Shown here piece by piece: positions 6,842-42,238 of a DNA stretch of 43,392 nt; the first letter of the stretch is position 1; every line of letters starts with the position of its first letter. Under the pieces are notes generated by a model. That model was not told the DNA's origin. It saw only the letters and a program-made list of their open reading frames with translations, and did no database searches. The position numbers and the translations under genes are program-made. Source of the stretch: a virus; IMG/VR virus record IMGVR_UViG_3300044695_003079, positions 1 to 43,392 of that record. One strand, 5' to 3'.

Positions 6842-6870
6842 ATTATAACATGACTTTAGATAAAAGTCAA
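6842..6870 (-). promoter_or_regulatory. Promoter in front of dnaE
   Basis: Minus strand TTGACT, 17-base spacer, TATAAT. It sits between the dUTPase stop and the polymerase start, so the polymerase and downstream genes can be made independently of the upstream part of the operon. Confidence 0.8.
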
Positions 6871-25723: not shown

Positions 25724-25746
25724 AAAAAAGAAGGGTGTTTACCCCT
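25724..25746 (-). terminator. Terminator of the nucleotide-kinase operon
   Basis: Minus strand AGGGGT/ACCCTT stem, AAAC loop, then CTTTTTT. It overlaps the last codons of the second exonuclease gene and separates it from the RNase H operon. Confidence 0.8.
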
Positions 25747-26299
25747 CTTGTTTTTCGCTATTCTCGATTTTTTGCAGGAATGAAAATATAACTGCGGTAG
25801 CTATAGCATCAGAATGAGCATCGTGCTCATCGAATAATTTATAACCAGCCTCCTCAGCGACATTCGCTAGTGTTAATATACTTTCCCTGTTTAAAATACG
25901 GCGCGCATTCTTATATGTACAATAAGAATGGAGAGGTAATGTGTTTACTCCAAATTTTTTCAAGACTAATCGATCGTTCTGCGCCCCATGAGATACGAAT
26001 AACATATCTTCGGGATTGTAGTTTGAGATTAATTGCGTGAAAGTTTTTATAAACTCTTCCTTGCTAATTCCATTCTCATTTAAGAACTCTGTTGTAAGAC
26101 CAGTATACTTGACCGCATACTTGTCTACACTCGGCACTTTAATGTACCAGTTGAAATTTACTGCCAACTGATATATGTAATTTTTTTCGTCTACTAATTT
26201 AAATATGAGACCTGCACATTGAAGCACATTGTCTTTATCATATTCTATGTCAGCAACTAAAACATAAGGTTGTTTGATGTTTTTTAAATACATCAACAT
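25739..26299 (-). CDS. Second DEDDh 3'-5' exonuclease (DnaQ-like)
   Basis: 186 aa. Exo I is VLVADIEYD, Exo II is FVSHGAQNDRLVLKKFG, Exo III is HDAHSDAIATAVI with the DEDDh histidine. A C-x-C-type cluster (HSYCTYKNAR) lies between II and III, as in oligoribonuclease/ExoX-like members. Only distantly like the exonuclease at 1.1 kb, so it is not a simple duplicate; it may act in DNA turnover rather than proofreading. Two in-frame ATGs (26299 and 26293) precede the domain, neither with a strong ribosome binding site. Confidence 0.82.
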   Translation of the reverse strand: MLMYLKNIKQPYVLVADIEYDKDNVLQCAGLIFKLVDEKNYIYQLAVNFNWYIKVPSVDKYAVKYTGLTTEFLNENGISKEEFIKTFTQLISNYNPEDMLFVSHGAQNDRLVLKKFGVNTLPLHSYCTYKNARRILNRESILTLANVAEEAGYKLFDEHDAHSDAIATAVIFSFLQKIENSEKQEG

Positions 26300-26302
26300 A
26301 AG

Positions 26303-26563
26303 CTAGAAAGCCTTCTTAAATGCGGGCTTAAATTGCTGCTTAGGCTTATAAGGTGCTGGACTTCCTGCTCTAACTGGTTTTGGTTCTTCAACTTTTATAA
26401 CTACTGGTTTTGATTTTGCTACCAATACTTCATAAGGTTGTGACCACCCTGAAACTTGAACATATGGCTTTCTAAGATTTAATTCTTTACGAAGTTTATC
26501 TGTACTCATCTTAGCCATTTGAACTTCTGCTCTTAAGTCTGTTTTATCATATCGTCTTGGCAT
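26303..26563 (-). CDS. Small basic Pro/Lys-rich protein
   Basis: 86 aa. N-terminal helix with RRYDKTDLRAEVQMAKM, middle SGWSQPYEVLVAKS, then a Pro/Lys-rich low-complexity tail (EEPKPVRAGSPAPYKPK) ending FKPAFKKAF. High positive charge suggests nucleic-acid binding or a virion role; nothing more can be said. Start ATG 26563 with AGGAGG upstream. Lies between the membrane protein and the second exonuclease. Confidence 0.6.
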   Translation of the reverse strand: MPRRYDKTDLRAEVQMAKMSTDKLRKELNLRKPYVQVSGWSQPYEVLVAKSKPVVIKVEEPKPVRAGSPAPYKPKQQFKPAFKKAF

Positions 26564-26576
26564 TTATTGTGTCCTC

Positions 26577-26930
26577 CTATAGAACAAATATTAATGTAAT
26601 CGCGGCGGCGGATAGAATAAAAACAATAGCATGGAACCATAAACTGTCTCTTGTTTTGTCTGTTATATCAATCGCGGCTAATTCTCCGAAGTTTACACCT
26701 AAACTATCTTTACCAGTTTTTCTAGCACTTGTGATAATTGCTCTTATTACAAATGAATTTGTAAATACACCTGCTGAATATGCAGGTATAACCATAAACG
26801 CAAATGCGTACCAGTTTTGTTTAATAAATAATTCAATTTGTTCAAGATATGTTATTACAAGAACTGTTCCAACTACAACACCAATTAATAAAAGTATCAA
26901 TAGCCATTTTTGCTTTAAAAAATTTAACAT
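26577..26930 (-). CDS. Three-helix membrane protein
   Basis: 117 aa with hydrophobic segments at about 9-28 (LLILLLIGVVVGTVLVITYL), 40-60 (WYAFAFMVIPAYSAGVF) and 98-117 (AIVFILSAAAITLIFVL). The loop 62-95 is soluble (TSARKTGKDSLGVNFGEL). Start ATG 26930 with GGAGG, overlapping the kinase stop. No family recognised; a phage inner-membrane or lysis-related role is possible. Confidence 0.62.
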   Translation of the reverse strand: MLNFLKQKWLLILLLIGVVVGTVLVITYLEQIELFIKQNWYAFAFMVIPAYSAGVFTNSFVIRAIITSARKTGKDSLGVNFGELAAIDITDKTRDSLWFHAIVFILSAAAITLIFVL

Positions 26931-27496
26931 TAATTTTCCTCCAATAGTTTCTCTATTTTGCGGTAATTAAGCTCATGCTGCTCATTTGAGCAATCTGTTT
27001 TAAGAACTAAGTCCGCTATTTTTTCTATATCTTCAAATTGTATCTCATCATCTCTTAACCGCATCTCAAATCTAATTGGGTCATCTAATCTTTCGTGACC
27101 CCTGCGGCGAAGTTCTTCGCTATCGCTGTGAAGGTAAATAACCTTAACTTTATTTTTGCCAAGATGTTTAATAGCATTTTTTGCACCATCTTGATTTAAT
27201 ATTGCTAAGTTTATTTTATCATTATCAACTTCAGACTTGGTTAATCCGTAATACCATTTATCATCTGTATAGTCAGATAATCTGTAATCTGTTGTTTCAA
27301 TAAAGAAGTTTTGTATCGCCATTGTAATAAATGAAACAGTTTCAAGAAAATGATACTGAAGATGATTTGTTTCACCTTGTCTCATCGGTCTTGTTGTATG
27401 GGAAACAGCTCTATGCCAAGAAGGATTTCTTTGCATAAGAGTTTCTCTATATGTATTCTTACCACTAGCAGTCTTGCCGCATAATATTAATAGCAT
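26930..27496 (-). CDS. Guanylate-kinase-like (d)NMP kinase
   Basis: 188 aa. P-loop LCGKTASGKNTY at 5-16, then SHTTRPMRQGETN, the GMP-binding TTRxxRxGE signature of guanylate kinases, and a YYGLTKSEV segment matching the guanylate-kinase YGT region. The lid region is RRRGHERLDDPIRFEMRL. It probably phosphorylates dGMP or another dNMP from degraded host DNA. First gene after a structured leader RNA and terminator, which lie directly before its GAGGT ribosome binding site. Start ATG 27496. Confidence 0.82.
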   Translation of the reverse strand: MLLILCGKTASGKNTYRETLMQRNPSWHRAVSHTTRPMRQGETNHLQYHFLETVSFITMAIQNFFIETTDYRLSDYTDDKWYYGLTKSEVDNDKINLAILNQDGAKNAIKHLGKNKVKVIYLHSDSEELRRRGHERLDDPIRFEMRLRDDEIQFEDIEKIADLVLKTDCSNEQHELNYRKIEKLLEEN

Positions 27497-27510
27497 ACAA
27501 TACCTCTTTA

Positions 27511-27535
27511 TAAAAAAGAAGGGACTTTAACCCTC
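27511..27535 (-). terminator. Intrinsic terminator directly before the kinase ribosome binding site
   Basis: Minus strand GAGGG, 7-base loop, CCCTT, then CTTTTTT. The T-run ends about three bases before AGAGGT of the kinase gene, the arrangement used by transcription attenuators. Confidence 0.7.
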
Positions 27536-27707
27536 GAGGACGACTTTACGACTCTCGTTTTAATAGCTCCTAAAGCCATGTCAGTAGGAACCATCTCTGG
27601 CGGTTTCTCTTAAGTGCTTTCCGTGTTTGTCTCTTCTATCGAGAGAACTCAAACTCTTGTGACTAATAGGCTTGCGCCCTGAGTCTTCGCACCAGAATCA
27701 TTCATAT
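27511..27707 (-). ncRNA. Structured leader RNA: candidate riboswitch/attenuator or stand-alone small RNA
   Basis: About 195 nt between a promoter and a terminator, with no open frame. Visible pairings: a long-range 7-bp stem TCTGGTG/CGCCAGA (27690-27696 with 27596-27602) enclosing a hairpin GGC-GCAA-GCC with a GNRA loop (27669-27678) flanked by GACT/AGTC, and a hairpin GTTTG/CAAAC with inner TCTC/GAGA (27625-27654). Outside it are hairpins ATGGCT/AGCTAT (27563-27579) and ACGA/TCGT (27548-27558). It does not match tmRNA, RNase P, 6S, SRP or any riboswitch class I know. Confidence 0.6.
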
Positions 27708-27713
27708 ACACAT

Positions 27714-27742
27714 ATTATAACACATGTGTATTTGAAATACAA
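27714..27742 (-). promoter_or_regulatory. Promoter of the leader RNA and kinase operon
   Basis: TTGTAT, 17-base spacer, TATAAT. Start of transcription expected near 27707, giving the leader described above. Confidence 0.72.
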
Positions 27743-27754
27743 ATTTTGGAACCA

Positions 27755-28069
27755 CTACTTGTCTTCAGTGGTTGGTGCTGGTGCTTCGGCGGGTTTCCAG
27801 CTTTCCGCTAACTTATCATGCATTACTTGCAACCAGTTGAGATAGTATTGTTTAGCGATTTCAATTTCACCAAATACCATTCCTCTTGCCCGCATAATAA
27901 TGTGACCGTTCTTATCTACTAATAATATAGCCTCACTTCCGTCATCTTGAAATACATTAAATACTTCAATTAGTTCTGTATCAAAAGCAAATGTTGTTTT
28001 AGGAACAAATACTTTTTGACCTTCTTTAAACTTAACAACTTCTGCTTTTTCTTTTTTTAAATCTGGCAT
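27755..28069 (-). CDS. Unknown 104-aa soluble protein
   Basis: 104 aa. A short beta-rich core (GQKVFVPKTTFAFDTELIEVF, then EAILLVDKNGHIIMRARGMVFG) looks like a small barrel, followed by helix IAKQYYLNWLQVMHDKL and an Ala/Pro/Thr tail. No cysteines. Start ATG 28069 with AGGAGG upstream; next to two small membrane proteins. Function unknown. Confidence 0.62.
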   Translation of the reverse strand: MPDLKKEKAEVVKFKEGQKVFVPKTTFAFDTELIEVFNVFQDDGSEAILLVDKNGHIIMRARGMVFGEIEIAKQYYLNWLQVMHDKLAESWKPAEAPAPTTEDK

Positions 28070-28649: not shown

Positions 28650-29012
28650 TGGTGGAGTCGAGGGGAATTGAACCCCTGTCCGAATAGCTATCCCATAAAA
28701 ACATCTACATGCTTAGCTTCTTATATTATCTTATCATACTTTGAATAAAAAGTCAAAATTAAAGTATGAGCAAACTTATTATTCTTTAAGCGTGACTAGT
28801 TCAGCCGCACTCTCATATCTGGCTTTCTTTTCAGGGTTTGTCCCACCAGAGAGGACTCGCCCAGATAGCTCCTTCTAAATTAAGCTAATGCATATGCCAT
28901 TGAAGGCGTATATGCAGGAATGTAACTGTTGTCAGTTATCTTGTTTTGGCTTTAAGGCACCACGCCGCATGCATTTCTACTAATCACTACCCGTCGAGAC
29001 CATTACGACCCC
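28650..29012 (-). ncRNA. ssrA: tmRNA (transfer-messenger RNA)
   Basis: 363 nt. The 5' GGGGTCG and 3' CGACTCC pair with the G.U wobble at the third position that marks alanine charging, followed by A and an encoded CCA. The T-arm GGGGTTCAATTCCCC is present. The tag frame starts at GAC 28931-28933 after ATAACT and ends TAA at 28880-28882. With the loaded alanine the tag is A-DNSYIPAYTPSMAYALA; the ALA end is the usual protease signal. It rescues ribosomes stalled on broken mRNA. The 5' end is one base after the stop codon of the upstream gene, so the RNA must be cut out of the operon transcript, presumably by RNase P. Confidence 0.96.
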
Positions 29013-41932: not shown

Positions 41933-42106
41933 CTACTTGTCTTTTTTTTCTTCTTCATCTTCTTCAAAGTGTTCTTCTATACTTTTTTCTAAATCAAAAT
42001 CATCATCAAATACGTCTGTTTTTTTCTTCTTCTTTTTTGGTTTTTCATTGAACGCAACAGCAACGGCTATGGCCGCAGCTAATGGGTCTATTTTATTATC
42101 TGGCAT
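41933..42106 (-). CDS. 57-aa Ala/Lys/acidic small protein
   Basis: ATG at 42104-42106 with AGAGGTGG upstream, stop TAG at 41933-41935. Three blocks: hydrophobic Ala/Val (LAAAIAVAVAFN), poly-lysine (KPKKKKKK), and an acidic end (FDDDFDLEKSIEEHFEEDEEE). Overall it looks like a charged linker or scaffold-type peptide. Directly precedes the 535-aa gene behind a long structured leader. Function unknown. Confidence 0.65.
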   Translation of the reverse strand: MPDNKIDPLAAAIAVAVAFNEKPKKKKKKTDVFDDDFDLEKSIEEHFEEDEEEKKDK

Positions 42107-42238
42107 TAAACCACCTCTCTTTGTTTTTAGAAAAACAACTTTGCAAATCCCACATTAAGACTTTTGCTTACATGAGAAACTTGCAAAATCGGAGCAGCGG
42201 GCCTAAGGAGATAGGATTACGCTGCTCTAATTAGTTAT
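42107..42238 (-). promoter_or_regulatory. Long structured 5' leader of the 57-aa/535-aa genes
   Basis: About 130 nt untranslated. Contains a two-part hairpin: outer GAGCAGCG/CGCTGCTC (42192-42199 with 42220-42227), inner CCTA/TAGG (42202-42215) with loop TCTCCT. The rest holds repeated TTTGCAA/TTGCAAG-type words. No terminator in the leader. Could control translation or mRNA stability; not matched to a known riboswitch. Confidence 0.5.

Follow-up and report, generated by a model that had tools for sequence, protein, structure and literature searches.

Why would a phage put an intrinsic terminator, preceded by a folded RNA of some 190 nt, between a promoter and a nucleotide-kinase gene? This arrangement occurs in IMG/VR record IMGVR_UViG_3300044695_003079, a linear sequence of 43,392 bases that was analysed over its whole length and is called the window here. 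The phage encodes a DNA polymerase, a primase, a DnaB-type helicase, a ribonucleotide reductase, six tRNAs and a tmRNA; the likeness of its replication and kinase genes to those of Bacillota phages suggests a host from this phylum. The element lies on the minus strand, as do all features described below unless stated otherwise.

Layout of the kinase unit and its promoter

Read 5' to 3' on the minus strand, the locus consists of an extended −10 promoter, the structured RNA of about 190 nt, an intrinsic terminator, a Shine-Dalgarno (SD) sequence and a guanylate-kinase-like gene. This is the order that the first-pass annotation had described (a promoter, about 195 nt of RNA with stems, and a terminator before the kinase ribosome binding site), and each of these parts was found. 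The kinase gene (26930..27496, 188 aa, ATG at 27496) is assigned by family match to PF00625 and phrog_1815. Its SD sequence AAAGAGG is located at 27503..27509, and the U-run of the terminator ends at 27512, 2 nt ahead of it. The kinase heads a unit of four genes, the remainder of which (25728..26930) comprises two ORFs of unknown function (26577-26930 and 26303-26563), a DEDD-type exonuclease gene (25739-26299) and a closing terminator (25728-25749) closely similar to that of the leader. The unit upstream of the leader ends without a clear terminator.

The predicted promoter (27714..27742) has the −35 element TTGTAT (27742-27737), a 17-nt spacer and the sequence TG-T-TATAAT with the −10 hexamer at 27719-27714, which places the predicted transcription start at about 27707. 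A generic sigma-70 scan misses this promoter because its −35 element is poor. We built a phage promoter motif from nine other upstream regions of the TG-N-TATAAT type in the same phage. With this motif the leader promoter scores 19.8 bits and the best unrelated minus-strand site 5.7 bits; the nine members themselves score 27.8-46.3 bits as training members and 10-37 bits when each is left out in turn. By the phage's own promoter standard, the predicted leader promoter is a real one.

The −10 region is surrounded by a dyad, TTCAAATACACAT-(10)-ATGTGTATATGAA, also given as ATACACAT-N10-ATGTGTAT (27701..27736, no strand assigned). A dyad of equal quality is found in 0.5% of random 55-mers of the genome, and in the related contig L003 both half-sites are altered in step (ATACGTAT..ATACGTAT). 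It may serve as an operator or simply belong to the make-up of this class of phage promoters; the operator is only a possibility because the palindromic tendency may be shared by the class generally. This phage-wide class, TTTGACTTTT..AAAGTNATGNTATAATTATNGTATA, has ten minus-strand sites in the window (for example at 6850, 15190, 22993, 25690, 30529, 31799, 38789 and 40256), is partly palindromic and carries an unusual conserved stretch 3' of the −10 element, TATNNTATA. A site of the class (28712-28760, 21.1 bits) is situated inside the tmRNA gene (28650-29012), where it perhaps drives the three small genes behind it. The tmRNA, with the tag DNSYIPAYTPSMAYALA, is kept in all relatives, and in the relative L005 it is 10% divergent with the same tag. 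Another promoter of the class, P42253, precedes a second structured leader (42110-42238), about 129 nt long. It folds into three strong hairpins (z −4.9), and the 3'-most of these abuts the SD sequence of a 57-aa acidic/lysine-rich ORF at 42106. This leader matches no Rfam family above threshold (Anti-Q RNA reaches E 0.14 at half the gathering score) and has no match in nine related contigs, which are mostly fragments.

We compared the 5' UTRs behind the ten class promoters that precede genes in the window, leaving out the tRNA promoter. Nine of them have 5' UTRs of 14-132 nt (≤40 nt in 7/9), as compared to 211 nt for the leader promoter, and the latter is the only one of the ten with an intrinsic terminator ahead of the first gene. 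Neither the generic sigma-70 scan nor the scan with the phage motif reveals a promoter between the leader terminator and the kinase ATG. The placement of the terminator ahead of the kinase, as annotated before, is thus upheld. Since the 211-nt UTR contains a terminator and no promoter follows it, the supply of the kinase operon is best read as read-through of the leader terminator, unless transcripts from the upstream unit supply it.

Predicted fold and conservation of the RNA

The leader RNA (27511..27707) measures about 190-197 nt to the U-run. Its 5' part is predicted to form a three-way-junction domain (27596..27696) of the helices P1, P2 and P3. P1 consists of 7 bp, UCUGGUG/CGCCAGA (27696-27690/27602-27596). 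P2 (27685-27682/27664-27661 plus 27679-27676/27671-27668) is capped by the GNRA loop GCAA (GUAA in L003), and P3 has the base GUUUG/CAAAC (27654-27650/27629-27625) and an upper stem. These three helices, all of which had been pointed out earlier from the letters of the sequence, are present in both the minimum free energy (MFE) and the centroid fold. The strand J3/1 that joins P3 to P1, ACGGAAAGCACUUAAGAGAAAC (27603..27624), is single-stranded and invariant. Next comes the 10-bp hairpin P4, AUGGUUCCUA-(12)-UAGGAGCUAU (27563..27594; 27594-27585/27572-27563), with pair probabilities of 0.95-0.99. A stem ATGGCT/AGCTAT proposed in this region has to be redrawn: AGCTAT pairs with ATGGTT as the end of P4, and ATGGCT lies in the loop. 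The hairpin P5, CGAG..CUCG (27535..27557), abuts the terminator GAGGG-UUAAAGU-CCCUU-C-UUUUUU (27512..27535), whose hairpin has a free energy of −5.7 kcal/mol and, in the default fold, a pairing probability of 0.92. Taken alone, the folding energy is not exceptional (z −0.85 for the whole RNA, −1.5 for P1-P3 and −3.4 for P4); conservation is what exceeds chance.

The element is present on three other IMG/VR contigs: L003 and L004, which are near-identical to each other and have kinases 97% identical to that of the window, and L005, with 83% kinase identity. The order of promoter, RNA, terminator, ribosome binding site and kinase is kept in all three lineages. Between the window and L005 there are 0/188 changes in the RNA (27698-27511), as compared to 36/363 in the tmRNA, 92/567 (16%) in the kinase coding sequence, 54 of them at third codon positions, 6/48 in the promoter and about 12-25% in the flanking genes. 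The kinase ribosome binding site and start are unchanged as well (0/37), as compared to 2-37 changes at 21 other gene starts. Together these form an identical block of 225 nt (27474..27698). No exact match shared by the two phages is longer, and those next in length measure 79, 68, 51 and 51 nt. The block spans the terminator and the SD sequence and, in the kinase gene, the start codon and 23 coding nt. The invariance covers the whole length of the RNA, loops and linkers included, and its continuation through the ribosome binding site and the first 23 coding bases argues for a role in cis.

Within the RNA, no two known copies are set apart by more than 3 positions. L003 has three changes, a G-U to A-U replacement in P2, GCAA to GUAA in its loop and one in a joining strand, all of them compatible with the predicted fold. 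The three near-identical lineages provide one one-sided compatible change and 0 compensatory changes. Recombination was considered as the cause of the identity and set aside: L003, otherwise close to the window, differs at three RNA sites where L005 matches the window. Because of these sites and because both flanks are divergent, constraint is a simpler explanation than repeated exchange. Our comparison supports the view that the RNA is structured and under selection. In the same region the exonuclease gene (25739-26299) contains a patch with up to 97% DNA identity to L005 (96-97%), its neighbours having 70-80%; this is a possible recombination patch. With such a highly similar patch nearby, recombination may still have contributed to the identity of the RNA.

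Distribution of the RNA

An Rfam scan of the whole window detects only the tmRNA and the tRNAs, and a relaxed scan of 27450-27800 (E≤10) gives chance matches only. The Infernal search advised in the first-pass annotation therefore assigns the RNA to no family, at gathering or at relaxed thresholds. With the RNA as query, BLASTN yields no significant match in phage records (50,697), plasmids (72,556) or E. coli genomes. The sole match in an exact scan of 84,980 species genomes with one 19-mer is a chance one inside an archaeal gene, and exact 17-19-mers from J3/1 find only the known contigs plus chance matches within coding sequences (L018, L019). A gapped P2 pattern hits eight further contigs, none of which is accepted by the covariance model. 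This model, R1, was run on 35 records, among them 27 phage contigs with a related DNA polymerase (including phages at 36-46% polymerase identity), three RNA-bearing relatives and four kinase-bearing annotated phages, and it finds only the known copies of the RNA. BLASTN matches in distant polymerase relatives were rejected as homologues, as they cover mainly the terminator.

Kinases of the same family occur in Brevibacillus phage Sundance, Enterococcus phage Planchet, Clostridioides phage LIBA6276, Staphylococcus phage Fi4S2 and the polymerase relative L056. In these five phages the kinase gene sits close behind other genes and has no such leader. From these loci and the searches above, the RNA is limited to one phage genus (three lineages, four contigs, as far as the searched sequences go) and is untied to the kinase family. 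Among the distant polymerase relatives, L059, L060 (G026, G025), L058 and L061 (G010, G009) have kinase-like matches with in-frame TAG codons, nine in two of the four, hinting at TAG recoding in these phages.

How the RNA may act

We consider the RNA a genus-specific phage leader that would act as a transcription attenuator for the four-gene unit headed by the kinase. The probability that we give to this reading is a little under one half; it is a judgement and not a computed value, as are our gradings of all other readings. RNA polymerase would start at the phage promoter near 27707, and the transcript would fold compactly into the three-way junction P1-P2-P3 followed by the hairpins P4 and P5. 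By default, transcription would stop at the U-run (27517-27512); the product set free would be stable and about 190 nt long, and this short terminated form probably accumulates. The kinase operon would receive only the polymerases that read through the terminator, and their fraction would depend on some agent able to recognise this unvarying RNA. A free nucleotide is a less likely agent than a protein that binds RNA, the polymerase or a second RNA. What the sequences show is the promoter match, the predicted structure, the position of the terminator, the lack of a further promoter and an extreme conservation that goes on past the kinase start; partial, regulated termination with the conserved RNA as its regulator is what we infer from them. 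Three points speak against attenuation: transcription from the unit upstream, where a clear terminator is missing, may also supply the kinase; invariance over the whole length exceeds what attenuators usually show; and kinases of the same family in other phages do without such a leader.

There is also no ready antiterminator, as the best alternative folds lie 9-11 kcal/mol above the MFE. CUCUCGA of P3 can form 7 bp with UCGAGGG, and we rejected this candidate: it is about 11 kcal/mol uphill, and a 7-bp complement occurs in 13% of shuffled sequences. The other complement that would reshape the neighbourhood of the terminator is that of CUCUCG in P3 with CGAGAG. Since the only complements found cost 9-11 kcal/mol, a classical antiterminator flipped by a ligand is not visible, and the invariant RNA is more plausibly acted on by a protein, by the polymerase or by an RNA partner. 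This speaks against a small-molecule riboswitch for a nucleotide or nucleoside, which was initially proposed for the leader. The layout of the leader is indeed that of a terminating riboswitch, with a junctional domain, a terminator and a ribosome binding site before a nucleotide-kinase gene, and in this it resembles the purine, 2'-dG and PRPP/ppGpp ykkC families of Rfam. In contrast to them, the leader has no Rfam match at E≤10, no antiterminator and no spread across bacteria (it is absent from the phage and plasmid records and, by the exact scan with one 19-mer, from the 84,980 species genomes), and in the five other phages named above this kinase family lacks the RNA. We therefore regard the sensing of a nucleotide or nucleoside as unlikely. 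T-box leaders are likewise about 200 nt long with a terminator, and the string UGGUUCC resembles their core. This assignment was rejected: the core UGGNACC is not matched, its A being a U here, the bases of the string are paired within P4, and RF00230 gives no match. Attenuation by a leader peptide would require that a 28-codon ORF, MVPTDMALGAIKTRVVKSSSRVKVPSFL (27508..27594), be translated through the terminator to cause read-through. Every copy preserves this open frame, and its end falls exactly in the U-run. However, it has no good SD sequence, its start codon is sealed in P4, and zero synonymous changes have occurred in any of the three lineages, from which selection is not mainly at the protein level. 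The ORF is probably not translated, and we rejected this explanation as the least credible of all.

The main rival, coming close behind attenuation, is a stand-alone small RNA of about 190 nt that ends at its own terminator and acts in trans, its targets being RNAs of the host or the phage or else a protein, with the kinase operon then living on leaky read-through or upstream transcripts. We regard it as a serious, if tentative, possibility. It accounts well for an invariance that runs the whole length of the RNA and exceeds that of the phage's own tmRNA, and it agrees with the RNA having its own promoter and terminator, with the missing antiterminator and with kinase homologues that lack the RNA. 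A precedent is IsrK of the Gifsy-1 prophage, a phage small RNA with its own promoter and intrinsic terminator and with a read-through mRNA isoform (PMC4825925). The leader RNA shares the promoter and the terminator, its read-through being deduced here; sequence, structure, host and downstream genes all differ, and activity in trans is here only a reading. What fits a trans-acting RNA less well is that the identical block continues through the terminator, the SD sequence and the start codon into the kinase coding sequence. Moreover, the kinase unit would be the sole unit without a promoter of its own, and the target is not known. In HK022 put, a structured leader RNA ahead of terminators acts in cis by RNA alone (PMC9378689). 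If the leader RNA worked in this way, the nascent transcript would bind its own polymerase and make it resistant to the adjacent and later terminators. The position of a phage leader between promoter and terminator, the strict conservation expected of a polymerase-docking RNA and the independence of put from protein factors (PMC9378689) are in favour of such a mechanism. However, put is about 70 nt long with two stem-loops and known in lambdoid phages of enterobacteria, as compared to about 190 nt with a three-way junction and two hairpins here, and the operon reaches a terminator after only four genes; we hold this mechanism to be very improbable. A more speculative model, doubtful in our judgement and still easier to accept than nucleotide sensing, is a new RNA class. 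Compact and nearly immutable, such an RNA would either bind to the polymerase or ribosome of the host or sequester one of its factors, and would also gate its own read-through into the operon for nucleotide metabolism and an exonuclease. Large Bacillota-type phages would then possess an RNA with two roles, small RNA and antitermination switch.

Returning to attenuation as the best reading, the leader RNA looks like a real, previously undescribed phage RNA that ends at a terminator. To our knowledge, few phage RNAs besides tRNAs and tmRNA are so strictly conserved. Besides its tmRNA, this phage maintains a second RNA that has varied even less, and a terminator separates this RNA from a nucleotide-kinase operon. 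Should the RNA gate the operon, it would add to the rare examples of attenuation in phages that encode replication genes of their own. Should it work in trans, it would be a new phage RNA with a target in the host.
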